A stretch of 64,000 nt of DNA from Sulfitobacter sp. SK012 (GTDB taxonomy: Bacteria > Pseudomonadota > Alphaproteobacteria > Rhodobacterales > Rhodobacteraceae). The position numbers were made by a program, and so were the translations under genes. Each line of letters starts with the position of its first letter. The first letter of the stretch is position 1. Below are positions 4,443-29,553 of this stretch, in pieces. A model generated the notes under the pieces. It searched no databases. It was not told where the DNA came from and saw nothing but the letters and a program-made list of their open reading frames with translations. Location of the stretch: contig NZ_CP025806.1 of assembly GCF_003352085.1 (NCBI RefSeq), forward strand, positions 43,112 through 107,111, given 5' to 3'.

Positions 4443-5396
4443 ATGAAATTTGGTGCTTTGAAGACGATGGTCGCAGCCGTGGCAATCGCCGCAGCTGGCG
4501 CAACTACGGCTATAGCCGAATGGCAACCTAGCGGCCCGATCAAACTGATGATCGCATTCCGTGCAGGCGGAGGAGTGGATACGTCCGCACGTCTGCTGGC
4601 CGAAGAATTATCAGCCCGGCACGGATGGGAAATCATCCCCGAGAACGTTGACGGTCGTGGTGGTGCTGCGATGGCCGCTGCGCTGAAAGATGAGCCTGCC
4701 GATGGTCAATCCATCGGAATGACCGCTATGGACAGTCTGGCGTATGGCGTGCTTGCCACCAAGAACCCGGGCTTCGGCACGGATGATTTCACCTATCTTT
4801 CAACCGTTACCGGTACGCAGGCCGGACTTATCGCAAAGTCTAGCCGCGGGTGGAAAACGCTCGCTGATGTGATTGCCGCGGCAAAAGCAGGGGAAAAGAT
4901 CACCGCAGGCGCGATGAGTGCCAAACTCGCCGATGCTTTGTATCTGATCGGTGAAGCTAATGGCATCGAGCTGACAACCGTGATGGTCAAGGGTGGCCAG
5001 GGCGGATTGAACGGTGTTATGGCCGATGACCTTGATATAGCCTGGGCTGCGGGTCCGCAAACAAAAGGCGTACAAGCAGGTGATCTTGTGAACCTCGTCT
5101 CTGCCATCGGTAAGCCTTTGAATGTCTCCCCGGACGCGCCGCTTTTGTCGGAATATGGTGTTGAGTTCGTATTCGGCACGATGTTCGGCGTGATCGGACC
5201 TGCCAACATGGACGCAGAAGCGCGCGAAGCCATTCAGGATGCAATCGCTGAGGTCGTGAACGATCCCAGCAGTAAATTGAGCAATTATATCTCGAAGGCA
5301 TTCGGTGGCCCAGAGGCAATTAAAGGCGCTGATTTTGATGCCTTTATGCAGAAAGCCAGTGCCGAAGCAGAAAAATTGATCGAGGCCGCGCAGTAA
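4443..5396 (+). CDS. tctC: Tripartite tricarboxylate transporter substrate-binding protein (TctC/Bug family)
   Basis: The 317-residue protein starts at ATG 4443 behind a strong GAGGAGG site. It has a signal peptide (positively charged MKFGALK, alanine-rich core, predicted cleavage after AIA near residue 26) and the Bug-family fold signature: GPIKLMIAFRAGGGVDTSARLL near the N-terminus. It should act in the periplasm, capture a carboxylate and deliver it to TctBA. Gene order tctC-tctB-tctA is standard. Given neighbouring sulfatases and hydroxyacid oxidases, the ligand may be a (sulfated) aromatic or hydroxy acid; this is inference. Bug proteins bind very varied carboxylates and sequence alone does not tell. 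Confidence 0.9.
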   Translation: MKFGALKTMVAAVAIAAAGATTAIAEWQPSGPIKLMIAFRAGGGVDTSARLLAEELSARHGWEIIPENVDGRGGAAMAAALKDEPADGQSIGMTAMDSLAYGVLATKNPGFGTDDFTYLSTVTGTQAGLIAKSSRGWKTLADVIAAAKAGEKITAGAMSAKLADALYLIGEANGIELTTVMVKGGQGGLNGVMADDLDIAWAAGPQTKGVQAGDLVNLVSAIGKPLNVSPDAPLLSEYGVEFVFGTMFGVIGPANMDAEAREAIQDAIAEVVNDPSSKLSNYISKAFGGPEAIKGADFDAFMQKASAEAEKLIEAAQ

Positions 5397-5416
5397 GAGA
5401 ACGCGTAGTTGGTCTT

Positions 5417-5442
5417 GGCCCCGGGCTACTTGGCTCGGGGTC
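5417..5442 (+). promoter_or_regulatory. Intercistronic hairpin between tctC and tctB
   Basis: GGCCCCGGGC (5417-5426) pairs with GCTCGGGGTC (5433-5442) along ten consecutive positions, two of them G-U, around a 6-base loop. It sits in the 63-bp gap after tctC and has no U tract. In transporter operons such hairpins commonly protect the binding-protein mRNA or reduce readthrough so that the soluble component is made in excess. Confidence 0.5.
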
Positions 5443-5459
5443 CAAGGGAGGAGCCACCG

Positions 5460-6041
5460 ATGTTAAGCCGAAGAACTGAACTGATCCTAGGGTTGTTTTT
5501 TCTTGGACTGAGCCTATTCGCTGTTCTTGTATGGATACCACTCGACAGTGAAACCGGCATGATCGAGACTTTTCGCCGCCAAACAACAATGGGCGATGCT
5601 TTCCTGCCGACTGTTGCCGGGGCGTTGATGGCGATTTGCGCTGTCGTGCATGTGCTTGTGAGCTATCGACGGACAGACAACTTTGACACAGAAAACCCGA
5701 CAATAGACGGCAACGACCTTGCTTTCTTGCTGCAATTGATTGGCATTACGGCCTTGTCGATCGCACTGTTCTATTGGGCCGGCCCCATTGCAGTTGGCCT
5801 ATTTGCTCAGGGCGATGGTGGCGAGTTGGTCACGTACCGACAGATGCGTAGCACATATCCGTACAAGCTTATCGGATTTGTGATGGGAGGATTCAACTTG
5901 GTTTTCCTCACGACGGCCCTGATCGAGGGGCGCGTTAGGGCAATTCGCATAATTTCCTCGCTCCTTGTTGTCGCCATCCTGATCGCGATCTTTGACCTGC
6001 CACTTGATAACGTCCTGCTGCCCCCGAACGGAGACTGGTGA
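5460..6041 (+). CDS. tctB: Tripartite tricarboxylate transporter small membrane subunit (TctB)
   Basis: This 193-residue hydrophobic protein starts at ATG 5460, seven bases after AAGGGAGGAG. Four hydrophobic segments are visible (near residues 6-26, 39-58, 76-105 and 130-185), the TctB pattern of a poorly conserved four-helix protein. It lies between the binding protein and the large TctA subunit, and its stop codon overlaps the tctA start, so the two membrane subunits are translationally coupled. It is required with TctA for Na+/H+-driven uptake in this family. Confidence 0.85.
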   Translation: MLSRRTELILGLFFLGLSLFAVLVWIPLDSETGMIETFRRQTTMGDAFLPTVAGALMAICAVVHVLVSYRRTDNFDTENPTIDGNDLAFLLQLIGITALSIALFYWAGPIAVGLFAQGDGGELVTYRQMRSTYPYKLIGFVMGGFNLVFLTTALIEGRVRAIRIISSLLVVAILIAIFDLPLDNVLLPPNGDW

Positions 6042-7636
6042 TGAGTGTACTTGACTACATTTGGGCCGGGATCATGGCCGTGCTGGCGGGGCCGGAGGCC
6101 TTTTCGATCTTCGGAATCGGGATTTCCATCACGATTATGATGGTCACTTTTGGTTTCCTTTTGGGCATTGTGATTGGTGCTACCCCAGGGCTTGGCGGCG
6201 CATTTGTTATGGCTGTTTCGTTGCCGATCTTGATCTCCATTTTTGGATACACACCCGATGCCCTATTGCCCGTGATGGGGTTTCTGATCGGAGTGATGAA
6301 AGGCGCGACCGTTGGTGGTGCTGTGCCTGCAATTCTCTTTAATACGCCCGGCACGCCGGATGCTCTGATGACCACTCTGGACGGGTATCCCATGGCCAAA
6401 AAGGGACAAGCAGGCAAAGCGCTACGGACAGCACATTTTGCTTCGGCCTCCGGCGATACGTTTTCGGATCTGGTGCTATTTACGACGGCACCTTTCCTGG
6501 CGATCTTGGTTGAATCTTATCTGGGATTCGCTGAAAAAGCTGCTTTGATTATTCTTTCGCTCAGCTTTGTCGCGGCGGTTGTTGGTGCGTCTCCCATGAA
6601 GGGGCTGATTGCCGCTTTTTTCGGCATCTTGCTGGCGTCAATCGGAACAGGCGAAGACCTGTACCCCCGCCTCACCATGGGTACGGATTTTCTGGCAAAC
6701 GGCTTTCCTTTGATAACTGCCGTGCTGGGTGTTCTGATCATGGGAGAAGTCATACATTCATTCGAGGAAATCTGGCGTGACCGGCGATCCGACAGGATGG
6801 CATCTGAATTCAAACAATCCGGCGACAACGGTCTGTCATGGCGTGAGCGACGCGCTTTGTTGCCGTATATAAGTGTTTCCGCAGTGGTAGGCACCGTGAT
6901 CGGGGCATTGCCTGGAATCGGTTCCACGCTTGCCGCAACATTGGGTTATGCTACGGGTCAAAAAATGCACAAAGGTCCAGTTCCTTTTGGTGAGGGCACC
7001 CCAGAAGGGGTCGCCGCTACGGAGGCCGCGAACAGCGCTGTCTCTGGCTCGAACCTCATTCCGGTTTTGAGCCTTGGAATACCGGGCAATGTAAGCGCGG
7101 TCTTTTTGATCCTTGCAGCGGAATCTATTGGCGGCTTCAACCCCGGACCTAGTGTGTTCCGCTTTACCGTTAACGAGGTAAACCCTGAGTTGGTGATTGC
7201 CTTTGGACTGTTCACAACCATGATGATCGGCAATATTTTGAACTGGACCATTGGCGGCCAGTTCATGCGATGGGTTGGGGTAATGGCACGCGTTCCGAAG
7301 CCGGTCCTGATGCCAATGGTCTTTTTGCTGACAATTACGGCGGTCTACGTCCAAGAGACAGACATGGTTGCAGTTTATTTTTTGCTGATATTTGGACTGT
7401 TAGGTTACGTGATGCGGAAAATCAAAATGCCGATTTTGCCCTTCGTAATTGCATTCATCTTGGCAGGCAACTTGGAAACGGCAATGCGTCAAGCCTTTTC
7501 CGTGTCCGACGCGGATCCGCTTTTCTTGTTCCGCAGTGGCACGTCAATTGTATTTCTGGGTCTGTCGGTTCTTGTGGTGATCTTCTTTTCCCGAAAGCAA
7601 AAACAGGACGTTGCTATGTCCTCTGAAGTGTCTTGA
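6041..7636 (+). CDS. tctA: Tripartite tricarboxylate transporter large membrane subunit (TctA)
   Basis: The protein of about 531 residues has roughly twelve transmembrane segments and the TctA family hallmarks: GATPGLGGAF in the first half and GALPGIGSTLAATLGYATGQ in the second, two copies of the conserved GxxPGxG loop that come from the internal duplication. NSAVSGSNLIPVLSLGIPG is a second conserved stretch. The ATG at 6041 overlaps the tctB TGA, and GTG 6038 is an alternative. It forms the transport channel with TctB and receives the substrate from TctC. Confidence 0.93.
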   Translation: MSVLDYIWAGIMAVLAGPEAFSIFGIGISITIMMVTFGFLLGIVIGATPGLGGAFVMAVSLPILISIFGYTPDALLPVMGFLIGVMKGATVGGAVPAILFNTPGTPDALMTTLDGYPMAKKGQAGKALRTAHFASASGDTFSDLVLFTTAPFLAILVESYLGFAEKAALIILSLSFVAAVVGASPMKGLIAAFFGILLASIGTGEDLYPRLTMGTDFLANGFPLITAVLGVLIMGEVIHSFEEIWRDRRSDRMASEFKQSGDNGLSWRERRALLPYISVSAVVGTVIGALPGIGSTLAATLGYATGQKMHKGPVPFGEGTPEGVAATEAANSAVSGSNLIPVLSLGIPGNVSAVFLILAAESIGGFNPGPSVFRFTVNEVNPELVIAFGLFTTMMIGNILNWTIGGQFMRWVGVMARVPKPVLMPMVFLLTITAVYVQETDMVAVYFLLIFGLLGYVMRKIKMPILPFVIAFILAGNLETAMRQAFSVSDADPLFLFRSGTSIVFLGLSVLVVIFFSRKQKQDVAMSSEVS

Positions 7637-7648
7637 GGAGCGTGCGTT

Positions 7649-8479
7649 GTGGCAATTAAAAATATTCTTGTAGCTTACAACGGAACTGAAAGCAGCGATG
7701 CAGCCGTTCATATGGCTATGCTGATGCATCGGAAATACGGCTGCCATGTCACCGGGTTGTTGGCGCATGCAGGCCAGCATGAAAAGCTGAGCCATCATTC
7801 ATGGGTTCCCGAAAACGTGCGCCAGACTATTGCCGATCGGATCACCCAGAATGAGCGGGATACGGAAGCGCAATTTTACGCGTTGACGGACCAGCAAGTA
7901 AGTACCGAGCACCTGCATTGGATATCGCTTTATGGCAACGCCGATGCGACCGTCGCTAAATACGCCCGCATGTATGACCTGACGCTTGTGGGCCGCTATG
8001 ATGCGATCGAGGAACAGCCACATCTGGAACTACACCCTGAAAACATTGCTTTGCGTAGTGGTCGGCCGGTGCTGGTCGTGCCGCGCGGGCATCACCCGGA
8101 GCGTATCAACGAGACGGCCGTCATCGCGTGGGACGGTCAGCGCGCTGCCACCCGTGCGGTAACGGATGCGATGCAGATTTTAGAGTCCAAGCAGCGCGTG
8201 GATGTACTGAGCGTTGACGATGGATCAGTTCGCCAGCCTCTTGAAGGCATCGACATCGCGACCTCTTTGGCGCGCCATGGCATCACCGTCGAACGTGTTC
8301 GCAAGGACAAAGTAACCGGCCGCACGGGCAAGGACATCCTTGAATATTGTACAAAAGTGAATGCAGGATTGCTGGTGATGGGGGCATATGAACACTCCGT
8401 TTTCCGCGAACGTCTGTTTGGCGGAACGACGAATTATATTCTCGCCCATGCGACTCTGCCTGTCTTCATTTCCCATTAA
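7649..8479 (+). CDS. Universal stress protein, tandem UspA domains
   Basis: The 276-residue protein holds two UspA domains: residues 1-145 (IKNILVAYNGTESSDAAV...) and 150-276 (AVIAWDGQRAATRAV..., ending in VMGAYEHSVFRERLFGGTTNYIL). The GxxGHSxxxExLxGGxT type nucleotide-binding loop is recognisable in the second domain. Start is GTG 7649, eight bases after TTGAGGAG, 12 bp after tctA, so it belongs to the same operon. UspA proteins often accompany TTT and TRAP transporters and may sense the energy state or gate uptake; that role is inference from frequent association. Confidence 0.85.
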   Translation: MAIKNILVAYNGTESSDAAVHMAMLMHRKYGCHVTGLLAHAGQHEKLSHHSWVPENVRQTIADRITQNERDTEAQFYALTDQQVSTEHLHWISLYGNADATVAKYARMYDLTLVGRYDAIEEQPHLELHPENIALRSGRPVLVVPRGHHPERINETAVIAWDGQRAATRAVTDAMQILESKQRVDVLSVDDGSVRQPLEGIDIATSLARHGITVERVRKDKVTGRTGKDILEYCTKVNAGLLVMGAYEHSVFRERLFGGTTNYILAHATLPVFISH

Positions 8480-8494: not shown

Positions 8495-10024
8495 ATGACC
8501 CAGCCCAATTTCATTTTTATCACATCTGACCAACATCGCGGCGATTGTCTGGGCGTCGAAGGCCGTAAGGTTCGCACGCCACATCTGGATCAGTTGGCGG
8601 CCGAGGGGACTCGGTTCACGTCGGCCATTTGTCCATCGCCCGTGTGTCAGCCCTCTAGGGCGTCTATTTTGACTGGCCAGCTATGCCGGACCAACGGTGT
8701 GCATGACAACGGTATCGATCTTGATCCAGAGGTCGGCGAAAAGGGTTTTGCGGGCACTCTGGGATCGCAAGGGTACGATACGGCCTTTTTCGGAAAGGCG
8801 CATTTTTCGAGCTATGATGCGCGGCACAAGACAGGCACACCGGAAAGCGTGTTATCATCCGAAGATTATGATGACGATTGGCACGGCCCCTACATGGGCT
8901 TCCAACATATCGAAACCATGATCCACGGCCACAACTGGTTCACGCCGCAAAAACCCCCACGCGGGTTACATTTCGAACGTTTCTATTACGGCTCCGGTCG
9001 CGGAGATGAGTTGAACGAATTGTACAAACAAAACGGTGGCGACACCAAAGGGGCGGCGCAAACGTGGCACAGCCAATTACCGCTGGCCTATCACAACACA
9101 CCTTGGACCGCAGACCGCGCAATTGAGTGGATCAACCACGGGCGCGACAAAGATAAGCCCTTCATGACGTGGATCAGCTTTCCCGATCCGCACCACCCGT
9201 TTGACTGCCCCGAACCTTGGTCGCGCCTGCATGATCCCAAAGACGTGGACCTGCCGGAACACCGCACCCGTGATTTGGAAGATCGCCCGTGGTGGCACAA
9301 AGCAGCGCTTGAAAACTCCCCCCAAGGCGACGCGGAATCCATTGCTATCCGCAAGGCCTACTCGCGTATAACGCCCCAAACCGACGAGCAATTGCGCGAA
9401 ATTATTGCCAATACTTACGGGCAAATCGCGCTGATTGATCACCACATCGGGCGGATCATGAACACACTGCGCGAGGCAGGTTTGGATGAGAATACCTACA
9501 TCATCTATTCTGCCGATCACGGCGATTGGCTGGGGGATCACGGTTTGGTCCTGAAGGGGCCGATGTTCTACGAAGGCTTGCTGCGCATCCCGCTAATCGT
9601 GCGCGGCCCGAACGTGCCCGCAGGGCAGGTGGTCGATGAACCGGTGTCTAATATTGATGTCGGTCCGACCATGTTTGACCTGGCGGGTGTCACACCGGCA
9701 CTGGATCAACACGGTGAAAGCTTGCGGCCGTTTCTTGAAGGCCAAGACGCGACCCGCGATTTCGCCATGTGCGAATGGGAGCTTTTACCAAACCGCGTCG
9801 GCGTTGCCCTGTCCCTGCGCGCGGTGCGCACCAAGATCGACAAGCTGACGATGGACATGCGCTCGGGCGAGGGGGAGATGTATGATTTGGTGAAAGACCC
9901 ACACGAAATGACCAACGTGTTTGCAGACCCTGATTACGCTGAGCGCCGCGCCGAGCTTGAAGGTTATCTGGGCCAGCGCGCGGATGACATCGGCCCGATC
10001 CGCACACCTGTTGGTCCGGCCTAA
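8495..10024 (+). CDS. Formylglycine-dependent (type I) sulfatase
   Basis: The 509-residue protein is an alkaline-phosphatase-superfamily sulfatase. The active-site signature C-x-P-S-R occurs as C51-Q-P-S-R55, where Cys51 would be turned to formylglycine by FGE. Metal and sulfate ligands are visible at D12 (ITSDQHRGD) and in SADHGDWLGDHG near residue 340. There is no signal peptide, so the enzyme should act in the cytoplasm after import of the sulfate ester. It sits 15 bp after the UspA gene and just before a hydroxyacid oxidase. FGE is encoded at 12,768. The substrate is unknown; an aromatic or hydroxyacid sulfate is suggested by the context. Confidence 0.93.
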   Translation: MTQPNFIFITSDQHRGDCLGVEGRKVRTPHLDQLAAEGTRFTSAICPSPVCQPSRASILTGQLCRTNGVHDNGIDLDPEVGEKGFAGTLGSQGYDTAFFGKAHFSSYDARHKTGTPESVLSSEDYDDDWHGPYMGFQHIETMIHGHNWFTPQKPPRGLHFERFYYGSGRGDELNELYKQNGGDTKGAAQTWHSQLPLAYHNTPWTADRAIEWINHGRDKDKPFMTWISFPDPHHPFDCPEPWSRLHDPKDVDLPEHRTRDLEDRPWWHKAALENSPQGDAESIAIRKAYSRITPQTDEQLREIIANTYGQIALIDHHIGRIMNTLREAGLDENTYIIYSADHGDWLGDHGLVLKGPMFYEGLLRIPLIVRGPNVPAGQVVDEPVSNIDVGPTMFDLAGVTPALDQHGESLRPFLEGQDATRDFAMCEWELLPNRVGVALSLRAVRTKIDKLTMDMRSGEGEMYDLVKDPHEMTNVFADPDYAERRAELEGYLGQRADDIGPIRTPVGPA

Positions 10025-10027: not shown

Positions 10028-11161
10028 ATGGATTATGCGAACAAGTACCCCTCTATTTGGCATCTCGCCGCCCGCGCGCGCAAACGCCTGCCGTTCTTTG
10101 CTGCGGAATATCTCGATAGCGGGACGGGTATGGAATCCTTGGTGGATCGCAACCGCCAAGGGCTTGATGCCGTCCAGCTGACCCCGCGCGTGATGGGCGG
10201 GCGATTTACGCCGAACATCGGTACTGATCTACTCGGGCAAAGCTATTCCGCGCCATTCGGGGTTGCACCTGTGGGCATGTCTGGCCTGATGTGGCCAGGG
10301 GCAGAACATATCCTTGCCCGCATGGCGCGCGATAAATCTATTCCATACGGCTTAAGTATGGTGGCAAACGAAACGCCCGAAACGGTGGCAGAAATTGCAC
10401 CGAATCAGGCCTGGATGCAGATCTACTGTCCCAAAGAACCTGAAGTTCTGGATGATCTAATAGCGCGCACCAAAGCCACCGGCATTAAAACGCTGATCGT
10501 GACCGTGGACGTGCCAGTGGGGTCGCGCCGCGAACGCCAGCTTGCTGCCGGTCTAACTGTGCCGCCCAAGATGGACGTCAAAACGCTTTGGCGTGTGGCC
10601 AAACGACCTGAATGGGCGCTCAAAACGCTCTCCTACGGGGAGCCACGTTTCAAAACGCTTGAAAGCTATTTCCCCAAAAACCAGATGCGTGAAGGCGCCA
10701 AATTGATCGGCAACATCGTCGATGGTCGCCCAGATTGGGACTATTTCGATCGCATCCGCGCTGCGTGGGATGGCAACCTTGTGCTCAAGGGTATTATGCA
10801 TGCGCAAGACGCGACCGCAGCACTGGATCACGGGGCGGACGCTATCTGGGTCTCCAACCACGGCGGGCGTCAGTTTGACGGTGCGCCGGCAGCCATTGAT
10901 GCCTTACCAGCTGTTACGAAAATCGTGGCAAGCCGCGCACCTGTGTTATTTGACAGCGGCATTCGCGGCGGTCTGGATATTGTGCGCGCGCTGTCACGTG
11001 GCGCTGATTTTTGCTTCCTCGGTCGCGGGTTTCTCTATGCAGTCGCGGCCCTTGGGGATGTGGGTGGCAATCACGCCTATGATATTCTGCGTGGTGATTT
11101 GGAAAACAACATGATCCAACTCGGCGCACGTACGCTGAATGAACTGAAAGACCTGTCATGA
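10028..11161 (+). CDS. FMN-dependent 2-hydroxyacid oxidase/dehydrogenase (LldD/mandelate dehydrogenase family)
   Basis: The 377-residue protein shows the family's TIM-barrel FMN sites: APFGVAPVGMSGLMWPGAE (75-93), MQIYCPK (130-136), K254 in LVLKGIM, the catalytic base H278 in SNHGGRQFDG with R281, and FDSGIRGG followed by GRGFLYA for the phosphate. It oxidises an L-2-hydroxyacid such as lactate or mandelate to the 2-oxoacid. It lies between two sulfatases, three bases after one and overlapping the next by ATGA, so all three are co-translated. This suggests that the desulfated product, or a side chain of it, is a 2-hydroxyacid. Confidence 0.9.
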   Translation: MDYANKYPSIWHLAARARKRLPFFAAEYLDSGTGMESLVDRNRQGLDAVQLTPRVMGGRFTPNIGTDLLGQSYSAPFGVAPVGMSGLMWPGAEHILARMARDKSIPYGLSMVANETPETVAEIAPNQAWMQIYCPKEPEVLDDLIARTKATGIKTLIVTVDVPVGSRRERQLAAGLTVPPKMDVKTLWRVAKRPEWALKTLSYGEPRFKTLESYFPKNQMREGAKLIGNIVDGRPDWDYFDRIRAAWDGNLVLKGIMHAQDATAALDHGADAIWVSNHGGRQFDGAPAAIDALPAVTKIVASRAPVLFDSGIRGGLDIVRALSRGADFCFLGRGFLYAVAALGDVGGNHAYDILRGDLENNMIQLGARTLNELKDLS

Positions 11162-13718: not shown

Positions 13719-13777
13719 CTTAATCAGTTTACCAGCCGACCCTATGTCATCACCCAACGCGGGCAGATCCACTAAGG

Positions 13778-18172: not shown

Positions 18173-18201
18173 ATAATGATCAATCGCAAGGCTTTCTTTC
18201 T

Positions 18202-21146: not shown

Positions 21147-21430
21147 TGCGTCTGGTTGCGAACCAATCCAGCTTGATCGAGCGGACAGAGCTCGTGACGT
21201 TTACCTTCGCGGGACACCCTGTTCAGGGGTATCGTGGGGAAGCTTTGGTCGCAGCGTTGTTGCGTAAAGGATATCTGAACCTACGAAATGCACCGCAAGA
21301 TACCGCCCCGCGTGGTGCGTTTTGTTGCATGGGCCTGTGTCAGGAATGCGTGGTTCATATTAACGGCCAAGTGGTTGAGGCGTGCCGCTATGAGGTTGCG
21401 CCCGACCTGTCGGTGGAGCGCTCAGGATGA
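21143..21430 (+). CDS. (2Fe-2S)-binding small subunit of a three-component FAD dehydrogenase (HcnA/SoxA-like)
   Basis: This 95-residue protein has the plant-ferredoxin-like cysteine pattern in FCCMGLCQECVV (three cluster cysteines) and a fourth in EACR 21 residues later, with no room for other domains. It is the gamma-type subunit found in hydrogen cyanide synthase, opine oxidases and D-hydroxyproline dehydrogenase. It overlaps both neighbours by four bases, so it is made in step with the two flavoprotein subunits. Confidence 0.87.
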   Translation: MMRLVANQSSLIERTELVTFTFAGHPVQGYRGEALVAALLRKGYLNLRNAPQDTAPRGAFCCMGLCQECVVHINGQVVEACRYEVAPDLSVERSG

Positions 21431-22848
21431 CGGATGTGTTCGACATTGCAGTTGTTGGAGCGGGGCCAGCGGGGGGCAATGCCGCTTTGGCCGCCGCACG
21501 CAACGGCCTGCGTGTGGTTTTGCTGGATGAACAACCGCAAGCGGGCGGGCAGGTGTGGCGAGCAAAATCTGCCGCTATCCTTAAGGCGCCAAAGACCATA
21601 GAAACCTTGGCAGGGGATGTATTGCGGCGTGCCATTGCATCGTCTGACGTCACCCATTTACATGGCGCTCGTGTTTGGCAGATATCGCGCGAAGGTGACA
21701 ACTGGCAGTGCCATATTCTGCGTGATGGAAAAAGCGAACCGGTGCAGGCGACGTCGCTGATCCTTGCCCCCGGCGCGCGCGAATATGTGCAACCGGTGCA
21801 GGGTTGGACAACCCCCGGCGTGATCGGCCTTGCGGGAGCGACGGCCTTGTTCAAGCAAAACTTGATCGTGCCGGGTCAACGCACTGTTGTCTCTGGCACT
21901 GGGCCCTTGGTATTCTATGTCGCCAGCGAAATTCGCCGTCTGGGCGGCGAGGTTGCAGGTATCGTAACACCTAATACACGCCGCGATTGGCTACAGGCGC
22001 TACCTGTGATGTTGGGTAAGCCCAAATTGCTGATGCGCGGTGCAGTATGGATGGTCGATCTGATGCTGGCACGGGTGCCGATTTATTGGGGCCACACCGT
22101 GACCGAAGTGTTGGGGACGACCCAGGTGTCAGGTGTTCAAGTTAGCAAACTGGATGCGGATTGGACGCCGAAAATGCAGGTCACAACCTTGCAAGCTGAC
22201 AGCCTGTGTCTTGGCCACGGGCTAATTCCGCAGATCGAAGCCGCGCAGATGTTGGGTGTCGGGATCACGCATGATCCGGCGTCTGGCGGTTGGGTGCCAA
22301 ACGCTCAGGATGACGGGTCTACAAACATTGGAAATCTTTATCTTTGCGGCGACGGCACTGGCATTCGCGGGGCGGATGCCGCTGCGGTGCAAGGGCGCGT
22401 AACTGGGATGCGTGCTGCCTCCGATCTTGGTTCTGATACCGACCAAGACATGCGCGCCGCGCACAATGAATGGCGGCGCGCAGCGGGCTTTGGCATGGCG
22501 ATGACGGCGCTGAGTATTCCGCGTGCAGGGATGGCGAGATGGACAACGGCTGAAACTATCGTTTGTCGCTGCGAGGGCATTATCAAACAGAGTGTTTTGG
22601 GCGAGGTCGCGACCGGTGCCGCCACTACCAATGCGGTGAAATCCGGCGTGCGTGCGGGCATGGGACCCTGTGGCGGTAAATATTGTCAGACTGCGGTTGC
22701 GGCGTTGATTGCGGATCACAAAGGTACCGACGTGTCAAACATCGCACCACCAACACCGCGCCCACCGCTGCGGCCTGTTCCATTGGGTGCCCTCGCAGGG
22801 TCATTTGATTACGACGATCTACCAATTCCAAAGCCTGCACCGCTATGA
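21427..22848 (+). CDS. FAD/NAD(P)-dependent oxidoreductase alpha subunit with BFD-like Fe-S domain (HcnB/OoxA-like)
   Basis: The 473-residue protein starts with the dinucleotide fold VVGAGPAGGNAALAAARNGL, has a second nucleotide-binding stretch TVVSGTGPLVFYVASEIRRLGG near 160, and ends with a BFD-like [2Fe-2S] domain: VCRCEGI and GPCGGKYCQ (cysteines near 380 and 420). This is the electron-transfer subunit of three-part amino acid or opine dehydrogenases, which hand electrons to the respiratory chain. It overlaps the flanking genes by ATGA. Confidence 0.9.
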   Translation: MTDVFDIAVVGAGPAGGNAALAAARNGLRVVLLDEQPQAGGQVWRAKSAAILKAPKTIETLAGDVLRRAIASSDVTHLHGARVWQISREGDNWQCHILRDGKSEPVQATSLILAPGAREYVQPVQGWTTPGVIGLAGATALFKQNLIVPGQRTVVSGTGPLVFYVASEIRRLGGEVAGIVTPNTRRDWLQALPVMLGKPKLLMRGAVWMVDLMLARVPIYWGHTVTEVLGTTQVSGVQVSKLDADWTPKMQVTTLQADSLCLGHGLIPQIEAAQMLGVGITHDPASGGWVPNAQDDGSTNIGNLYLCGDGTGIRGADAAAVQGRVTGMRAASDLGSDTDQDMRAAHNEWRRAAGFGMAMTALSIPRAGMARWTTAETIVCRCEGIIKQSVLGEVATGAATTNAVKSGVRAGMGPCGGKYCQTAVAALIADHKGTDVSNIAPPTPRPPLRPVPLGALAGSFDYDDLPIPKPAPL

Positions 22849-23942
22849 CGTATGACATCGCAATCATTGGCGGCGGTATTATGGGATGCAGCACGGCGTT
22901 GCGCGTCGTCGCAGGCGGCATGAAGGCTATCGTGCTGGATCAGGGCGATCTGGGACAAGGGGCGTCTGGCGTCAATGCCGGGACACTCAGCTTGCAAATC
23001 AAGCGAGTCAAATTGATGCCCTATGCACTCAAAGGCCATCACTTGTGGGAAGAGATGGGCGCAGCTGTAGGGTTTGCAAAAACGGGTGGTTACACGCTTG
23101 CGTTCAACGATCGCGAAGCTGAATTATTGAAAGAACGACAAACAATGAAGGCGGAGGCAGGCGCGCCGATTGAATTTGTCTCAAACAACAGATTGCGGGC
23201 CGCTGAACCCGGTCTGACCCAAAAAGTCGTTGCGGCGAGTTATTGCGCCGAGGATGGCTATGCCAATTCATCGCTGACAGGACAGTACTATCGGGGTTGT
23301 TTGCAGGACGCGGGGATTGAATATCGCGAGCAGAATGCCGTCACAGCCATCAAAAAGTTAAAGGCCGGCATTTTTGAAATCGCGACCCCCCAAGGTGTGG
23401 TTTACGCAAAACGTCTACTGCTTGCCGCAGGTGCGTGGTTGAAACCGTTGGCGGCGCTGCTGGATGTGAATCTGCCGGTGAACGCGCGGATCAACACAGT
23501 CTCTGTCACCGAACGCATGCCACCCCTAATGTCGAGCGTAATCGGCCATGCGACAGGCCTGCTGACCATGAAACAAAAGGCCAATGGCACCGTACTGATC
23601 GGTGGGGGTTGGCAAGGGCGCGGTACACCGCAAGAGGGGCGTGGCGAAGTGGATGTCGCATCCGTGCGGCCCAATCTGGCGTTGGCACAATATGCGTTGC
23701 CTGCCCTTGGCGACGCACGTGTGTTGCGCAGTTGGACGGGATTTGAGGCCAACGTGCCCGACTTCTATCCGCTCGCCGGAGCGTTGCCAAACGTGCCGGA
23801 CGCTTATGTTCTGGGCTGCGTGCGTGGCGGCTATACCATCGGCCCTTATATTGGGCAGCTGATGGGTAATTTCATTCTGGGGCGAGAGCCCGAAATGCCC
23901 CTTTTTGATCCGGGGCGCACATTCCAAGAGGACACGATATGA
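22845..23942 (+). CDS. DAO-family FAD oxidoreductase, catalytic beta subunit (HcnC/OoxB-like)
   Basis: The 365-residue protein has the FAD motif IAIIGGGIMGCSTALRVV, GASGVNAGTLS, and a C-terminal GCVRGGYTIGPYIGQLMG that closes the FAD site. It is the catalytic subunit expected to oxidise an amine or D-amino acid carbon, e.g. glycine, a D-proline derivative or an opine-like N-alkyl amino acid. With the two preceding genes it forms a complete three-subunit set. Because aromatic amino acid and omega-aminotransferases are in the same cluster, a secondary amine of aromatic origin is also possible. Confidence 0.9.
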   Translation: MTYDIAIIGGGIMGCSTALRVVAGGMKAIVLDQGDLGQGASGVNAGTLSLQIKRVKLMPYALKGHHLWEEMGAAVGFAKTGGYTLAFNDREAELLKERQTMKAEAGAPIEFVSNNRLRAAEPGLTQKVVAASYCAEDGYANSSLTGQYYRGCLQDAGIEYREQNAVTAIKKLKAGIFEIATPQGVVYAKRLLLAAGAWLKPLAALLDVNLPVNARINTVSVTERMPPLMSSVIGHATGLLTMKQKANGTVLIGGGWQGRGTPQEGRGEVDVASVRPNLALAQYALPALGDARVLRSWTGFEANVPDFYPLAGALPNVPDAYVLGCVRGGYTIGPYIGQLMGNFILGREPEMPLFDPGRTFQEDTI

Positions 23943-24715
23943 CACATGATCCAGCCCGCCTTGACGGGAAACTCGCTGTAATTACTGGCGGCGGTAGCGG
24001 AATTGGCGAAGCCACAGCGCATGTTTTTGCGCAAGCGGGCGCGACCGTTGTGGTGACGGGGCGGCGGTTGGAGCCATTAGAAAAAGTGGCCAAAGACGTG
24101 GGTGGCCATGCGATAGCTTGTGATGTGTCAAACCAAGATGACGTTCACGCGATGTTTGCCCGGGCGATGAATATTACGGGCCGCGTCGATGTGCTGCTCA
24201 ACAATGCGGGTGGTCCCGGTCCGATCGCGCCAGTTGCAGACGTCGATATGGTAGAGTGGGTGACCTGCATGAACATCAACCTCGTCGGAGCGATGTATTG
24301 CCTTCAAGAAGCGGCCAAGATTATGGGCGCGCAGAAGTCAGGGTCGATCATTAACATGTCATCCCTGATGGGTATCCAAGGCTACCCGATGCGTTCTGCC
24401 TATACGGCATCGAAATTCGCGTTGATCGGGATTACGGAAACTATGGCGCGTGAACTTGGGCCGGTTGGTGTGCGGGTCAATGCCCTTATGCCGGGTGCGG
24501 TGTCAGGTGCAAACATGGATCGTATTCTCGCCAAACGCGCCGAGGCCGAGGGCCGACCCGCCGCCGAAATCGAACGCGAAAACTACACCGATGTGGCCGC
24601 ACTGAAACGCTGGGTTTCCCCCGAAGAAGTGGGCCGCGCGGCGCTGTATTACGCAAGTGATCTAAGTTCGGCCATCACGGGCGATAAAATGAAAGTCGAC
24701 TGCGGTCGTTTCTAA
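23939..24715 (+). CDS. Short-chain dehydrogenase/reductase (classical SDR)
   Basis: The 258-residue protein has TGGGSGIG (16-23), NNAG (88-91), the catalytic S142, Y155 and K159 in SAYTASKFALIG, and a C-terminal SSAITGDKMKVDCG. The residue after the first strand is a basic pair (TGRR), which often goes with NADPH but also occurs in NADH enzymes. It oxidises or reduces a hydroxyl/keto group in the same pathway. ATGA overlap with the upstream gene, 11 bp before the aminotransferase. Confidence 0.92.
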   Translation: MTHDPARLDGKLAVITGGGSGIGEATAHVFAQAGATVVVTGRRLEPLEKVAKDVGGHAIACDVSNQDDVHAMFARAMNITGRVDVLLNNAGGPGPIAPVADVDMVEWVTCMNINLVGAMYCLQEAAKIMGAQKSGSIINMSSLMGIQGYPMRSAYTASKFALIGITETMARELGPVGVRVNALMPGAVSGANMDRILAKRAEAEGRPAAEIERENYTDVAALKRWVSPEEVGRAALYYASDLSSAITGDKMKVDCGRF

Positions 24716-24726: not shown

Positions 24727-25923
24727 ATGTTCGAGACAATTCAAAGCCGTGGTGTCGACCAGATTTTGGCACTGATGAAAGCGTTTCAGGCAGATCCGCG
24801 TGACAAAAAAGTTGATCTGGTGGTTGGTGTCTACAAAGATGCCAATGGTGCAGTGCCTGTCATGGATGCGGTCAAAGGCGCTGAGGCTTTGTTGCTTGAA
24901 CAAGAAACAACCAAGACATATGTCGGCATGGCAGGCGATGCTGAATTTCGCAGCTTTGTGCCGCCTTTGTTGCTGGGCGAGAACGCCACACAAATCGCTG
25001 AGGGTCGGGTGACGAGTTTGCAAACGGTCGGTGGATCTGGCGCCTTAAAAGTCGGGTGCGATCTGTTGAATTCAATTGAGCCGGGAAAGCGACTTTGGGT
25101 CAGTACACCGACATGGGCCAATCATGTGCCTGTGGCGACTGACGCTGGTCTAAATGTTGCCTACTATCCCTATTTCCGACCAAGTGATCGGGGGTTGGAT
25201 TTTGAAGCAATGATAATGCACCTTCAATCCAACAGCGCGGTAGGCGATGCCATCCTATTGCATGCGTGCTGCCATAATCCGACAGGTGTGGACTTGTCCC
25301 TTGAACAATGGAAGAAATTGAGCAGATTCATATCTGATCGCCGTTTGTTGCCATTTGTCGATTGCGCCTATCAGGGCTTGGGCGATGGTATGGAGAGAGA
25401 CGTCGCGGGGCTGCGAGTTTTGGCTGCCAAAGTTCCCGAAATGTTGATCGCAAGTTCATTCTCTAAAAACTTTGGAATCTATCGCGAACGTACCGGCGCA
25501 CTAACGTTGATTGCTCAAAATGCTGATGTACTTGCTAAGACCCAAGCCGCAGCCGAAACGGTCATCCGCTCGAACTACTCCATGCCACCGAGCCACGGCG
25601 CTCGAGTGGTCGCGAATGTCTTTGGCTCTTTTGAGCTGCGCTCGTTATGGGCGGAGGAGCTCAATGATATGCGTGCGCGGATTGCCGAGATGCGTCGGGT
25701 GTTGCGTTTGAAACTGGAAGAACGGCAGGTGACGCAAGACTTGTCGTTCCTGACGGATCAGTGCGGTATGTTCTCTTACACCGGTTTTAATCCAGCGGAC
25801 GTAGAGCGATTGCGCGCAGAATTTGGCATTTACACAGCTGGGGACGGGCGCATCAATGTTGCCGGATTGTCTGCGGACAATCTGGATGCCGTTGCTGACG
25901 GATTTGCCGCCGTAATGCGATAA
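24727..25923 (+). CDS. Aromatic amino acid/aspartate aminotransferase (class I, TyrB/AspC type)
   Basis: The 398-residue protein is class I-alpha: N184-P-T-G, D212 and the PLP lysine K247 in ASSFSKNFGIYRERTGAL, with VGVYKDANGAVPVMDAV at the N-terminus as in TyrB/AspC. A strong AAGGAG precedes ATG 24,727. It would interconvert tyrosine or phenylalanine with the 2-oxoacids. In this cluster it links aromatic 2-oxoacids (also made by the hydroxyacid oxidase) with amino acids. Confidence 0.92.
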   Translation: MFETIQSRGVDQILALMKAFQADPRDKKVDLVVGVYKDANGAVPVMDAVKGAEALLLEQETTKTYVGMAGDAEFRSFVPPLLLGENATQIAEGRVTSLQTVGGSGALKVGCDLLNSIEPGKRLWVSTPTWANHVPVATDAGLNVAYYPYFRPSDRGLDFEAMIMHLQSNSAVGDAILLHACCHNPTGVDLSLEQWKKLSRFISDRRLLPFVDCAYQGLGDGMERDVAGLRVLAAKVPEMLIASSFSKNFGIYRERTGALTLIAQNADVLAKTQAAAETVIRSNYSMPPSHGARVVANVFGSFELRSLWAEELNDMRARIAEMRRVLRLKLEERQVTQDLSFLTDQCGMFSYTGFNPADVERLRAEFGIYTAGDGRINVAGLSADNLDAVADGFAAVMR

Positions 25924-25975: not shown

Positions 25976-26940
25976 ATGGCTTTTCAGATTGAACCGCTGA
26001 CATTGCCATTGCCACACTGCTGGTTTGAAGCTGACACGTCGCTGCCGGCGCACCGGTTTAACGAATTAACGAAAAGAAGCTTGGATCAGGTATCTCCGCG
26101 CTTGCGGGTGTTGCGGCGGGGACCCAAGGCGCGGTGAGCGATGCTGTTGCACGGCGCGAAGACAACACGCTGGACGGGTCACAGCGCACGACTGATAACT
26201 ATTTCAACGTGGCTCGCGCCGATGATCTTCCAGTTCCGCAATTCCGTGTGGCGCTGGGGCAAACGTTGAATGCCTGCTATCTGGATGTCGCCTCGGGAGT
26301 GTCAATAAGTGATCGTGATGTTGAGGTTTTGGCGCTTGGATTGCACCGTCTCGCGGATTGGTCGCAATTTCCGACATCTACGGATATCGATGTGACAACG
26401 TGGGAGATGACAGCGCCCGCCGCGATTTACCGCTGGAAGCAACAGCACCATCTGTTCTTCGTAATCGTCCATGGGATTTTGTATTTGTTACACGTCCTTG
26501 AGGAGGCCATGGGCCGCTGTCATGCGCCTGTCGTCAAGGCGTTTTTGCAAGATTTTGCAGAACTGATGGAAGCGTCAGAGGTGGCGTTCCGACTGGCCAG
26601 CGATTTTTCGCAAGAGGCTTATGACAGTGAAGTTCGTCCCGACATGCATGCGTTTGATCCTCACTTTTCAGGACTGTTTTACGCTGACCACAAAGAACTG
26701 ATCACACGTTTACGTCTGCTGCGTGGGGTAGGTGATGATTTCGAACAGGAATTGAACCGTATCGACGACGCCATCACCGAGTCATACGATGTGCATGCGT
26801 TGGTTTGTCTGCGCTTTGTTGGGGAAACCTCAAGCCTTGCGTCGAAGGATGACACCCGCGTCGCAGCCGAAAGCATCCGTAATAGGTACGTCAACCGAAC
26901 TAAGACCATCGCGGGCTTTGGGAAGAAGACCAAACCATGA
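25976..26940 (+). pseudogene. Unrecognised conserved-looking protein, probably frameshifted near 26,074
   Basis: A good ribosome site (ATAGGAGA) precedes ATG 25,976, and the frame encodes MAFQIEPLTLPLPHCWFEAD up to about 26,074. The sense then continues in another frame as KKLGSGISALAGVAAGTQGAV and runs to 26,940 (268 residues from GTG 26,134). A single missing A in the run at 26,072-26,075 explains the break. The long part is mostly helical, with HHLFFVIVHGILYLLHVLEEAM as a hydrophobic stretch; I do not recognise the family. The stop overlaps the next gene by ATGA, so it is part of the operon. It may be intact if the break is a read error. Confidence 0.6.
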
Positions 26941-27785
26941 AACTGACAATTCTTGGGTCCGGTACGCCGGAACCCTATGCACGACGTGCCTCCAGCGGGT
27001 ATCTGTTAGAGGTCGGCGATGATGTGATCTTGTTTGATTGCGGAGGCGGCGTATTCGATAACTTGATCCGCTCAGGGCGTAAGCCTTCCGACATTACGCA
27101 TCTGTTTTTCAGCCATCTGCACAGTGATCACATGATGGACTACGCCCGTTTGGTGCATGCTGCATGGGACGAAGGCGGCGCGCCTATTAAGGTCTTTGGA
27201 CCTGCCCCGATTGGTTCAATTACCGAAGGGTACTTCGGTGTAGACGGTATCTTCTCGCACGATCTGAAGTCGCGAACAGAGTTGCTGCTCAGCCAAGAGG
27301 TTTGGAAAGCACGCGGCGGTACGTTGCCTCGCCCATGGCCAGCCCCTGAAGTCACTGAAACTGACGTTGACCATCAGTATCAGGGGACTGAATGGAGCCT
27401 GAACACCTGCTCCGTCCCTCACGCGCAGCCTTCGTTGCAATGCATGGCCTATTCCGTCAAACACGGCGGGCGCAAGTTTGTGTACTCAGGGGATGCGGGG
27501 CGCTGTGATACACTGGAAGCCCTCAGCGCCGGTGCCGATCTATTGTTGCATTGGTGTTACCGATTGGATGGCGAGGCAGCACATTCGTCAATGCTTGATC
27601 TGACACCGACACCATTTGAAACGGGTGCAATGGCGCGAAGGGCAGGCGTACGGCGCCTGTTGTTAACCAATTTCCGGATTCATATGGACGGCGATGACAA
27701 TTTTGCCGCCGCACAAGACAGTCTAAAGGCAGGTTTTGCCGGACCATGCGGGATCGTTGAGGATTTACAGAGCTACGATATTTGA
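26937..27785 (+). CDS. Metallo-beta-lactamase-fold hydrolase
   Basis: The 282-residue protein has the metal motif H60-L-H-S-D-H65 in LFFSHLHSDHMMDYARL, a further His in VPHAQPSLQCMAYSV, the bridging Asp in FVYSGDAGRCD and LHWCYR. The layout is close to the RNase Z/arylsulfatase-like (AtsA type) group of the fold, some members of which hydrolyse sulfate esters, cyclic nucleotides or lactones. With sulfatases nearby, a role on a sulfate ester or CoA thioester is possible, but the sequence does not decide. Last gene of the plus operon. Confidence 0.87.
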   Translation: MKLTILGSGTPEPYARRASSGYLLEVGDDVILFDCGGGVFDNLIRSGRKPSDITHLFFSHLHSDHMMDYARLVHAAWDEGGAPIKVFGPAPIGSITEGYFGVDGIFSHDLKSRTELLLSQEVWKARGGTLPRPWPAPEVTETDVDHQYQGTEWSLNTCSVPHAQPSLQCMAYSVKHGGRKFVYSGDAGRCDTLEALSAGADLLLHWCYRLDGEAAHSSMLDLTPTPFETGAMARRAGVRRLLLTNFRIHMDGDDNFAAAQDSLKAGFAGPCGIVEDLQSYDI

Positions 27786-27786
27786 T

Positions 27787-29553
27787 CTATGCGCCGCCAC
27801 TCGGCTTGCCCGCGCATTCCAGGAATATGCGCGCGGTGCATTTGGCGCAGATGTCATCGTCCGCCTTTTCAACCGCCGCTGCGATGGCGTCGGATTTGGT
27901 GAAATGCAAGTGATCCGCGCCCAGGACGCTAGTCACATGCATCCTTCGCAACGCATTGAGTGATGACTTATGCGACGCAATCAGGTGATAATCCTGCCCA
28001 CGTTTACGCGCCGCACGGCATTCATTGAGCAGAAAATCAGCGCCCGCCAGATCAATCTTGCCTACGCCTTTCATGTTCAACACCGTCGTTCTGCGGGTGC
28101 CAAAATGCGCATCAATGTCGCGAAATGCATCCTCGACGTGTTCGACAGACCCAAAAAACAATGGCCCTTCGATCCGTAGGTTCACGATCTGTGGGCATTC
28201 GGTTAAATCGTTGGTATGCGCATTTCGAAACACGCGCCGCCCCCCAACAAGCATAGGGGCACCTACCCCGACAGAGGGGTGTGCGCTCTTGTTCAAGAAC
28301 ACCGCTAGCGCGACTAGAACGCCGACCATAATCGCAAAATCGAGTTCCGAGAATATGCCCGTGATGAAGGTCGTCAAAAGGATTAATGTTTCACTGCGGC
28401 TGGTAATCAGAATGTGCCGGATTTCGTTAAAGTTGATCAATTTCCACGCCACATAGAGGATGATTGTTGCCATGGAGGGCACCGGAACGAACCGCACAAG
28501 CGGGGCAATCACGAATAGCGCAGCAAATAGGATGACGGCGGCAAAAATTGCGGCCATCGGGGTTTTTGCCCCACTTTCGGCGTTCAATCCTGATCGCGTG
28601 AACGACCCTGATCCTGCGTAGGATTGGAAGAACGACCCGACCATGTTGGAGATGCCTTGTCCGACGATTTCTTGGTTGGTATCATACCGTTCGGCACGGC
28701 GCAGCGCGAAGGATTTGCCGATTGATATTGCCTCAAGCAGTCCAACAAACGCGACCGCAACCGCCCCCGGCAACAAGTTTGACAGGATCGACAACGAGAA
28801 TTCCGGAGTTGTCAGGTTCGGAGTGACGCTCGTCAACGGGTCAAACATGCGCAATCCGGCCTGCGCGCCGCCTAATAACCACGATGTGGTGGCACCTGCG
28901 ATCAATGCCAGAATGTAGGCGGGGATGCGTTTGTCGATGCTATTGACGATCAAGATGGTCACAAGCGTCACCACTGAAACTACCAGCGCAGCGCTATTGA
29001 ACTCCCCCAAATGAAGCGCGACGCGTTCCAACCGTTCTATCACGCCGCCTCCGCTCTCGGTCAGGATACCCAAGGCCCCGCCAAGTTGGGACGCGGCAAT
29101 CAACAATGCGGCGGCGGCGGTAAAGCCGATGATGACCGAATGAGAGACAAAAGAAATCAGCCCACCAAGCCCTGCAAGCCCGGACGCGAATTGCAACACT
29201 CCGACCATAAAGGTCAGCGTCAAAGCTAGGGCGATGTAGGTTTCCGTACCAGGCAAAGCGAACTCGGACAGGGTTGCGAACACGACGGCGGATATCGCCG
29301 TGGTCGGGCCTGAAACCATCACCATCGATGCGCCCCAGAACGCGGCGATGGCGCAGACAACAATCGCAGTGAACAGCCCGAACTCCGGCGGTAAACCCGC
29401 GATGATTGCAAAGGCGACGCCTTGCGGGAGCACAATGGCGGCATTGGTGAAACCGGCAATAAAATCGGACCGCAGGGTATCTTTGTTGACCTGCCTGAGC
29501 CAGGGGCGAACAGGGCTAAGACGCCGCGATATCCTTGAGATATAGTGATGCAT
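27787..29553 (-). CDS. SulP (SLC26) family anion transporter with STAS domain
   Basis: The 588-residue protein has about 12 transmembrane segments with the SulP signature in AGFTNAAIVLPQGVAFAIIAGLPPEFGLF (residues 34-62) and a C-terminal STAS domain near 455-560 (LRIEGPLFFGSVEHVEDAF, NMKGVGKIDLAG). A cysteine-rich tail (CAKC, LEC) follows. SulP proteins carry sulfate, bicarbonate or dicarboxylates. Next to sulfatase genes it may take up or vent sulfate; direction is not known. It is convergent with the MBL gene (1-bp gap). Confidence 0.92.
   Translation of the reverse strand: MHHYISRISRRLSPVRPWLRQVNKDTLRSDFIAGFTNAAIVLPQGVAFAIIAGLPPEFGLFTAIVVCAIAAFWGASMVMVSGPTTAISAVVFATLSEFALPGTETYIALALTLTFMVGVLQFASGLAGLGGLISFVSHSVIIGFTAAAALLIAASQLGGALGILTESGGGVIERLERVALHLGEFNSAALVVSVVTLVTILIVNSIDKRIPAYILALIAGATTSWLLGGAQAGLRMFDPLTSVTPNLTTPEFSLSILSNLLPGAVAVAFVGLLEAISIGKSFALRRAERYDTNQEIVGQGISNMVGSFFQSYAGSGSFTRSGLNAESGAKTPMAAIFAAVILFAALFVIAPLVRFVPVPSMATIILYVAWKLINFNEIRHILITSRSETLILLTTFITGIFSELDFAIMVGVLVALAVFLNKSAHPSVGVGAPMLVGGRRVFRNAHTNDLTECPQIVNLRIEGPLFFGSVEHVEDAFRDIDAHFGTRRTTVLNMKGVGKIDLAGADFLLNECRAARKRGQDYHLIASHKSSLNALRRMHVTSVLGADHLHFTKSDAIAAAVEKADDDICAKCTARIFLECAGKPSGGA

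Follow-up and report, generated by a model that had tools for sequence, protein, structure and literature searches.

A candidate catabolic island in Sulfitobacter sp. SK012 that may link sulfate ester uptake to intradiol cleavage of DOPA

Ring cleavage of tyrosine and of 3,4-dihydroxyphenylalanine (DOPA) is known from the homogentisate and homoprotocatechuate routes, and two-subunit intradiol cleavage from PcaGH, the protocatechuate dioxygenase of the beta-ketoadipate pathway. The heme tyrosine hydroxylases (LmbB2, SfmD, and TyrH) are grouped with the HDAO superfamily, which is described together with its tyrosine branch in passages of PMC11904535. According to passages of PMC3851162, LmbB2 converts tyrosine to DOPA and carries a reported RWxxxH motif; LmbB2 and its named orthologs serve antibiotic or hormaomycin biosynthesis, and over twenty further orthologs occur in diverse bacteria. 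Here, relatives of these enzymes were analyzed in a 64 000-nucleotide stretch of Sulfitobacter sp. SK012 (the window, meaning the whole stretch), where they lie together with formylglycine-type sulfatases on a contig (C3) of 107,111 bases in a 5.18 Mb genome of four contigs. An earlier note on this DNA had described a sulfated-aromatic catabolic cluster, and every family that it named was found by profile search at about the place it gave. The reading favored here, by a modest balance of probability, sees in the region an island of catabolic genes devoted to a sulfated compound of tyrosine type, in which import and desulfation would be followed by formation of L-DOPA and its intradiol cleavage by an enzyme other than protocatechuate dioxygenase.

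When related loci were read alongside the window, its genes were found to split into two modules (Table 1). Module A (3717–13772) consists of MarR, TctCBA, the universal stress protein (Usp), the sulfatase SulfA, an FMN 2-hydroxyacid dehydrogenase, the sulfatase SulfB, and a formylglycine-generating enzyme (FGE), with MarR (3717–4184) on the minus strand, TctC to SulfB (4392–12771) on the plus strand, and FGE (12768–13772) on the minus strand. Block B (13778–24715) consists of the PcaGH-like pair, IclR, a beta-keto acid cleavage enzyme (BKACE), a class III aminotransferase, a CoA-transferase, SMP30, a DapA-like protein, a three-subunit dehydrogenase, and a short-chain dehydrogenase (SDR). Its PcaH/PcaG-like genes (13778–15049) and the BKACE and aminotransferase genes (15915–18128) are on the minus strand, while the stretch from CoA-transferase to SDR (18160–24715) is on the plus strand; because IclR (15121–15912, plus strand) sits between PcaG-like and BKACE, the minus-strand genes form two groups. 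The single joint cluster of the earlier note therefore survives in that all its genes are there, and gives way to two modules in that each is found elsewhere without the other.

The conservation of block B was examined by a species scan, in which the PcaH-like protein was compared with one genome per species. This gave 65 loci, of which 31 were retained at a PcaH-like identity of at least 68% over at least three-quarters of the query; 33 weaker loci and L065, covering 41% of the query, were dropped. Matches in the retained loci were 68–86% identical, as against about 40% for ordinary PcaH. Together with the window and plasmid p3 of Rhizobium leguminosarum they make up a set of 33 loci, which are not independent, since three near-identical Rhizobium loci (L042, L043, and L045) and four loci that are cut short (L047, L055, L061, and L062) are included. 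At least 10 of the 12 block B genes were present in 29 of the 33, the other four being those cut short, and BKACE was absent from seven loci whose sequence covers its place (L046, L047, L054, L055, L056, L057, and L063). The hosts were Rhodobacterales, Rhizobium, Pseudovibrio, Microvirga, a Nitratireductor metagenome-assembled genome (MAG), and MAGs of Pseudomonadales or Gammaproteobacteria, and the gene order was shared across Alpha- and Gammaproteobacteria. A protein search returned 205 PcaH-like relatives at E ≤ 1e-60; the 120 listed were 69–89% identical, and many were metagenomic. Block B is thus a genuine unit that has been conserved. On R. leguminosarum p3 it stands in the same order beside amino acid ABC transporter genes, and no sulfatase was annotated within the 36.7 kb around it; because block B occurs in this way without sulfatases, sulfate release is taken as an accessory of the pathway.

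The PcaGH-like subunits share with PcaGH the two-subunit intradiol family, the iron ligands, and the active-site Arg and Gln. In an alignment with the protocatechuate dioxygenase beta chain (2pcd), the iron ligands and catalytic residues were retained, and Y99, Y138, H151, H153, R148, and Q166 were present in all 30 distinct rows of the PcaH-like clade as well as in 18/18 rows of ordinary PcaH, as would be expected of an intradiol enzyme. The two Tyr and two His are presumably the iron ligands, and the Arg and Gln the active-site residues, of intradiol dioxygenases. The ordinary rows were drawn from 93 genomes with a PcaH match; one of these, Poseidonocella pacifica, also carries the PcaH-like gene, as does the SK012 genome itself. 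The differences lie elsewhere. The window pair is only ~ 40% identical to PcaGH and falls below both NCBIfam cut-offs (PcaH-like, 165.8 vs 296.4 bits for TIGR02422, protocatechuate beta; PcaG-like, 117.5 vs 126.25 bits for TIGR02423, alpha). Tyr324 is replaced by Asp (residue 14) and Trp449 by Ala, two positions that presumably contact the substrate. These replacements were found in 30/30 clade rows, whereas the ordinary rows had Tyr324 in 16 (two gaps) and Trp449 in 17 (one Phe). Judged by scores and residues, the pair is not a protocatechuate dioxygenase, and the ‘PcaGH-like subunits’ of the earlier note stand as two PF00775 intradiol subunits with that restriction. With Tyr324 exchanged for an acid and more room in the pocket, an ammonium group would be well accommodated. 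The reading as a protocatechuate pathway whose PcaGH is unusual was rejected on the missed cut-offs and changed pocket residues. The lactonizing and decarboxylating enzymes of the beta-ketoadipate pathway have no counterpart in block B, no pcaB/C/D-type genes being found among its families.

The gene at 26134–26940, which the earlier note did not mention, adjoins this catabolic block, in contrast to LmbB2 and its named biosynthetic orthologs. Its product had no family match in the Pfam and NCBIfam copies searched, and the newer Pfam family PF27188 is listed for it and its relatives in the protein database. Among all PDB sequences, SfmD, named as a 3-methyl-L-tyrosine peroxygenase, was the only match at E ≤ 10. 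A total of 46 related proteins were found, the window's own included, and in the 33 aligned the RWxxxH motif (R100, W101, and H105) was invariant, as were H186 and the HxxxC motif (H221 and C225). The latter three residues align with SfmD positions 274, 313, and 317, presumably the heme ligands and the thioether Cys. When a predicted model (mean pLDDT 85) was compared with solved folds by Foldseek, SfmD ranked first, two tyrosine hydroxylase entries came next, and IDO enzymes followed, all with weak scores (best E 3.6e-3; TM 0.65 for SfmD and 0.36–0.37 for TyrH). On its sequence match to SfmD and these motifs the protein is a tyrosine-hydroxylase relative, and its gene is the decisive one of the region.

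Among 394 family genomes, a PcaH-like gene (E ≤ 1e-70) was present in three, and hydroxylase copies of at least 60% identity were present in the same three; the chance of such a match is near 1e-7 if the genomes were independent, a figure that is too strong because they are related. A further search covered 30 block B genomes (the 33 loci minus the window, L029, and L045), and a copy of at least 51% identity was found in six, each directly after the SDR gene. Two genomes, those of Poseidonocella pacifica and Pacificibacter maritimus, turned up in both searches, so that seven distinct genomes are counted with the window. A P450 gene lies inside or beside block B in 8/33 loci, only one of which has the heme hydroxylase too, and two unrelated kinds of oxygenase at one locus fit a hydroxylation step.

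Sulfatases of the SulfB type lie near block B in 14 of the 33 loci, the window included. SulfB was searched (E ≤ 1e-60) against 30 block B genomes or records (the 33 minus the window, L043, and L045), and relatives were detected in 16, with 25 copies in total. In 13 of these 16 carriers a copy stood within about 10 kb of block B, where scatter of 25 copies over genomes of about 3.6 Mb would give ~ 0.3 such cases by the author's estimate, which ignores relatedness. In a tree of 27 sulfatases, whose 13 members not beside block B came only from the loci covered, the linked copies fell in more than one clade and the label ‘beside block B’ needed at least four supported changes. SulfB and block B have therefore not been passed down together without interruption, gain and loss being indistinguishable in this tree; 11 of the 14 linked sulfatases fell in one larger group, where the copy of Sulfitobacter mediterraneus was also placed. 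Module A itself recurs. In the MAG Yoonia MAG-48 it is complete and stands on the PcaH side of block B, with one stop in its SulfB; in Epibacterium ulvae it lies at the SDR side, together with the aromatic aminotransferase (TyrAT), and no FGE was seen in the stretch covered. Beside block B of Tritonibacter aquimaris were found TyrAT, an FMN dehydrogenase split in two, TctA/C, Usp, SulfB, and SulP. Sulfatases only 24–25% identical to SulfB occupy this position at three loci of Pseudomonadales (L054, L057, and L063). The adjacency of FGE to the PcaH-like gene is repeated in Planktotalea and Yoonia loci, MarR stands beside Tct genes in Yoonia MAG-48 (77%) and Epibacterium ulvae (63%), and, with the window counted, Usp is near block B in 8/33 loci and a GlcD-type 2-hydroxyacid dehydrogenase beside it in 6/33. 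Co-occurrence elsewhere, whose absence the earlier note had named as refuting its claim, was thus observed; its core proposal, that a sulfated aromatic amino or hydroxy acid feeds ring cleavage, is supported by the 13 of 16 SulfB carriers and by the Yoonia and Epibacterium loci.

Both sulfatases are formylglycine-dependent S1 enzymes by family (PF00884) and by a C-x-P-S-R motif, and FGE combines PF03781 with two Cys in SFLCHQSYC of its translation, presumably the active-site pair. With 19 sulfatase-family matches in the SK012 genome (two pieces of one open frame included), a sulfatase in the window is unremarkable by itself, and it is the company it keeps that matters. The nearest solved relatives of SulfB were 4upi and 4upl, which in passages of PMC5870055 and PMC12421950 are SpAS1 and SpAS2, arylsulfatases of Silicibacter (Ruegeria) pomeroyi, and arylsulfatase activity is predicted for SulfB on this likeness. 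A value of 2.1 x 10^5 is tabulated for SpAS2 on p-nitrophenyl sulfate in a passage of PMC12421950 that carries no units, and no choline arose from choline sulfate with either enzyme. The nearest solved relative of SulfA was an iota-carrageenan sulfatase.

The surroundings of SulfB relatives were also compared. Plasmid 1 of S. mediterraneus, which lacks block B, carries MarR, a third sulfatase, TctCBA, Usp, SulfA, FGE, and SulfB, without the FMN dehydrogenase; this version of module A adjoins hmgA, fahA, and maiA of the homogentisate route, and SulP lies beyond hmgA, once the record origin is crossed. Block B differs from that route in its ring-opening enzyme, which is of intradiol type, and its families include no relatives of hmgA, maiA, or fahA. 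In R. pomeroyi, a SulfB relative adjoins a cupin-domain protein and FAH, in whose company the cupin protein may be gentisate-dioxygenase-like. A hand count gave a SulfB relative within 20 kb of ordinary pcaH in 6 of 40 family genomes with both genes (149 searched). Across eight plasmids with SulfB relatives, a tripartite transporter (Tct or TRAP) was adjacent or nearly so in seven; ring-cleavage type genes stood beside one (R. pomeroyi, as proposed above) and perhaps a second beyond an insertion sequence element, and the remaining neighbors were urease, arsenic, sugar, or unrelated genes. The picture being mixed, these neighbors were rejected as a guide to the SulfB substrate. On the main contig of the SK012 genome (L110, C1:4490000–4509999), ordinary pcaGH is accompanied by a SulfB relative (52%) 3.5 kb away.

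The substrates and reactions that follow are all deduced from the observed gene families, their conservation and linkage, and the heme and iron ligand residues. Candidate substrates would be tyrosine O-sulfate, 4-hydroxyphenyl-lactate O-sulfate, or the matching catechol sulfates. The earlier note had offered a sulfated mandelate or a tyrosine derivative as examples; the latter is favored because of the tyrosine-hydroxylase-like gene and the aromatic aminotransferase, and sulfated mandelate is retained through the relatives of the FMN dehydrogenase, whose nearest solved structures include lactate oxidase, mandelate dehydrogenase, and 4-hydroxymandelate oxidase. TctCBA would take up the sulfate ester, and FGE would activate SulfA and SulfB so that the phenol is freed, the sulfate possibly being handled by SulP. 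The FMN dehydrogenase could oxidize an aryl-lactate to the aryl-pyruvate, which TyrAT would connect with tyrosine. Tyrosine would be converted to L-DOPA by the heme enzyme (perhaps by P450 at other loci), and the PcaGH-like enzyme would cut between the two hydroxyls of the catechol to give an alanyl-muconate. The route as a whole, with tyrosine often arriving as its O-sulfate and the alanyl-muconate passing through a proline-like ring to hydroxyproline-style enzymes and BKACE, is put forward more tentatively. The order after ring opening is speculative. The amino group may add to the muconate to form the proline-like ring, which the three-subunit dehydrogenase might oxidize and the DapA-like protein, SMP30, and SDR open and rework; the class III aminotransferase, BKACE, and CoA-transferase could then convert a beta-amino or beta-keto acid to acetoacetate and an acyl-CoA. 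The observation of the earlier note is confirmed and its interpretation partly supported; the hypothesis proposed here is sharper, namely that tyrosine or DOPA is broken down through intradiol cleavage, with arylsulfatases supplying the substrate.

Several findings weigh against this proposal. The window hydroxylase is frameshifted near its start, the N-terminal part lying in another frame, and is 268 amino acids long where many relatives have 311–337; the source strain may therefore lack the hydroxylation step, and it may also be that the frameshift is a sequencing error. The copy in Sulfitobacter marinus has stops, and Foldseek gave no match at E ≤ 0.001 for the hydroxylase model. Distant hydroxylase relatives (30–36%) are present in three family genomes without a PcaH-like gene. 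In the other 24 of the 30 block B genomes searched, one Rhizobium had a 27% match elsewhere and 23 had none, and neither the heme hydroxylase nor P450 was seen in 19/33 loci, some of them cut by contig ends. The FMN dehydrogenase was present in 4/33 and TyrAT in 3/33 loci, the window included. Arg450 is kept in the window PcaH-like protein, but, as Pro occupies this position in three of the four ordinary PcaH rows printed, it gives no argument for an amino acid substrate. Because SulfB relatives also adjoin genes for urease, arsenic, or sugar transport, membership of the wider family does not tie a sulfatase to aromatics and gives no proof of an aryl substrate. Finally, the catalytic roles of all proteins of the region are predicted, and the enzymes named for the speculative steps after ring opening are assigned with low confidence.

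It could be, with a smaller though appreciable likelihood, that block B handles another catechol borne on an amine or amino acid (of the beta-tyrosine/beta-DOPA, dopamine/noradrenaline, or hydroxyphenylglycine type) and that the heme protein hydroxylates that compound rather than tyrosine. The class III aminotransferase and BKACE would suit a beta-amino acid, and, SfmD being named a 3-methyl-L-tyrosine peroxygenase, the family is not limited to tyrosine; the aromatic/aspartate aminotransferase, in contrast, suits an alpha-amino acid and is adjacent in three of the 33 loci, so that the evidence is thin both ways. It is improbable that block B degrades a non-aromatic enediol or an N-heterocycle, with a PcaGH-like enzyme that has drifted from catechols and sulfatases of sugar or alkyl type. 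Sugar-acid routes often include members of the SMP30, DapA, and SDR families, SulfA is closest to a carrageenan sulfatase, and some SulfB relatives stand beside sugar transporters, yet the iron ligands and the active-site Arg and Gln are kept in 30/30 rows, tyrosine-hydroxylase or P450 genes are present at 14/33 loci, and the closest solved relatives of SulfB are arylsulfatases. Ascorbate-2-sulfate or sugar-acid degradation was rejected, as no gene beyond these broad families supports it, and hydroxyproline catabolism, prompted by the DapA-like protein and three-subunit dehydrogenase, was likewise rejected because it leaves the conserved intradiol dioxygenase unexplained.

A chance neighborhood, in which mobile elements joined two unrelated catabolic modules on a plasmid-like contig, would agree with the 107 kb size of the contig and with the occurrence of each module alone elsewhere; it is made very unlikely by the recurrence of module A, which in Yoonia MAG-48 keeps the flank that it has in the window and in Epibacterium ulvae takes the other one (no FGE seen), and by the excess of SulfB carriers with a nearby block B (13/16, about 0.3 expected). 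A biosynthetic role, the making of a DOPA-derived proline building block as in lincomycin-type pathways, is scarcely credible. In those pathways the partner of the heme hydroxylase is a DOPA ring-cleaving dioxygenase. LmbB2 does make DOPA, in the first step of the amino acid branch (a passage of PMC3851162), but the dioxygenase in block B is of intradiol type, and BKACE, the CoA-transferase, IclR, and the importers would point to carbon use.

Table 1. Predicted features of module A, block B, and the genes downstream (window positions).
Feature	Position	Strand	Basis and remarks
MarR-type regulator	3717..4184	-	named after a 43% relative annotated MarR in Sulfitobacter mediterraneus
TctC solute-binding protein	4392..5396	+	PF03401, 61.5 bits
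TctB	5409..6041	+	PF07331, 31.6 bits
TctA permease	6038..7636	+	PF01970, 336 bits
Universal stress protein (Usp)	7649..8479	+	PF00582; frequent Tct companion in related loci
SulfA, formylglycine-type sulfatase	8495..10024	+	PF00884, 162.7 bits; CQPSR in translation
FMN-dependent 2-hydroxyacid dehydrogenase/oxidase	10028..11161	+	PF01070, 395.9 bits
SulfB, formylglycine-type sulfatase, SpAS1/SpAS2 arylsulfatase group	11158..12771	+	PF00884, 151.4 bits; CGPSR
Formylglycine-generating enzyme (FGE), directly downstream of PcaH-like	12768..13772	-	PF03781, 224 bits; Cys pair in SFLCHQSYCYRYR
PcaH-like intradiol dioxygenase subunit, iron-binding; proposed DOPA dioxygenase	13778..14446	-	PF00775
PcaG-like intradiol dioxygenase subunit	14450..15049	-	PF00775
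IclR regulator, divergent from PcaG-like	15121..15912	+	PF01614, PF09339
BKACE beta-keto acid cleavage enzyme	15915..16793	-	PF05853, 313 bits
Class III aminotransferase	16797..18128	-	PF00202; NF005685, 630 vs cut-off 485 bits, passed
Class III CoA-transferase	18160..19368	+	PF02515, 299 bits
SMP30/gluconolactonase-like hydrolase	19365..20243	+	PF08450, 105.7 bits
DapA-family lyase/hydrolase	20247..21146	+	PF00701, 155.6 bits
2Fe-2S gamma subunit of dehydrogenase, 95 aa	21143..21430	+	PF13510 Fer2_4, 65.1 bits
FAD/NAD(P) alpha subunit of dehydrogenase, BFD 2Fe-2S domain	21427..22848	+	PF07992, PF04324
DAO-family beta subunit, amine/imino-acid dehydrogenase type	22845..23942	+	PF01266; nearest solved glycine and sarcosine oxidases
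Short-chain dehydrogenase (SDR), last block B gene	23939..24715	+	PF13561, 191 bits
Aromatic/aspartate aminotransferase (TyrAT)	24727..25923	+	NF006719 aromatic amino acid transaminase, 523.6 bits vs cut-off 377
Heme-dependent tyrosine hydroxylase-like protein	26134..26940	+	sole PDB match SfmD 6vdp, E 3.8e-13
Metallo-beta-lactamase-fold hydrolase	26937..27785	+	PF12706
SulP anion transporter	27787..29553	-	TIGR00815, 338 bits, under cut-off 380

The metallo-beta-lactamase-fold hydrolase is 81% identical to the Yoonia MAG-48 copy over the 49% that is present there, where it also follows the hydroxylase. At three loci from Rhodobacteraceae single-cell genomes (L046, L047, and L061), block B or its end is accompanied by SulfB and then by a LacI regulator and a sugar ABC transporter, with an MGH1-like glycoside hydrolase also at L046 and L047 (profiles were run for L046 only). 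A gamma carbonic anhydrase/PaaY-like protein stands beside block B in 7/33 loci (L029, L042, L043, L044, L045, L060, and L067), and none was found in the stretch of the window searched.

The contig carries two neighboring Tct-sulfatase modules. Directly upstream of the window (L034, C3:24000–43111) there is a further TctABC, with TctA 62% identical to that of the window, and a sulfatase 29% identical to SulfB. Within the window, a second FGE-like gene (2428–3299, plus strand), seen by likeness to the FGE translation, is broken into two reading frames that overlap (162 and 192 amino acids) and adjoins an AbrB-like membrane protein (1227–2330) and a GlcD-type dehydrogenase (listed open reading frame from 42). 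At 29659–31031 (plus strand), a truncated sulfatase N terminus overlaps the C-terminal part of an acetoacetate-CoA ligase; the full sulfatase before TctC in S. mediterraneus is 66% identical to it over the matched part.

The literature search found no DOPA-intradiol or sulfated-tyrosine pathway of this kind in the titles and abstract starts listed, from a body in which subscription journals are mostly absent, so that absence from print is not shown. Faba bean is a DOPA-making legume, and block B in rhizobia could be explained by the proposed pathway, since some legumes make DOPA. Faba bean and DOPA stand together in the title of PMC11876452. If the proposal is true, it would place a further way of opening the ring of tyrosine and DOPA next to the two known ones, give the heme tyrosine hydroxylases a catabolic home, and provide the SpAS-type arylsulfatases of marine Roseobacters with a class of natural substrates. 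Release of both carbon and sulfur at sea would then be tied to how sulfated aromatic metabolites are turned over.

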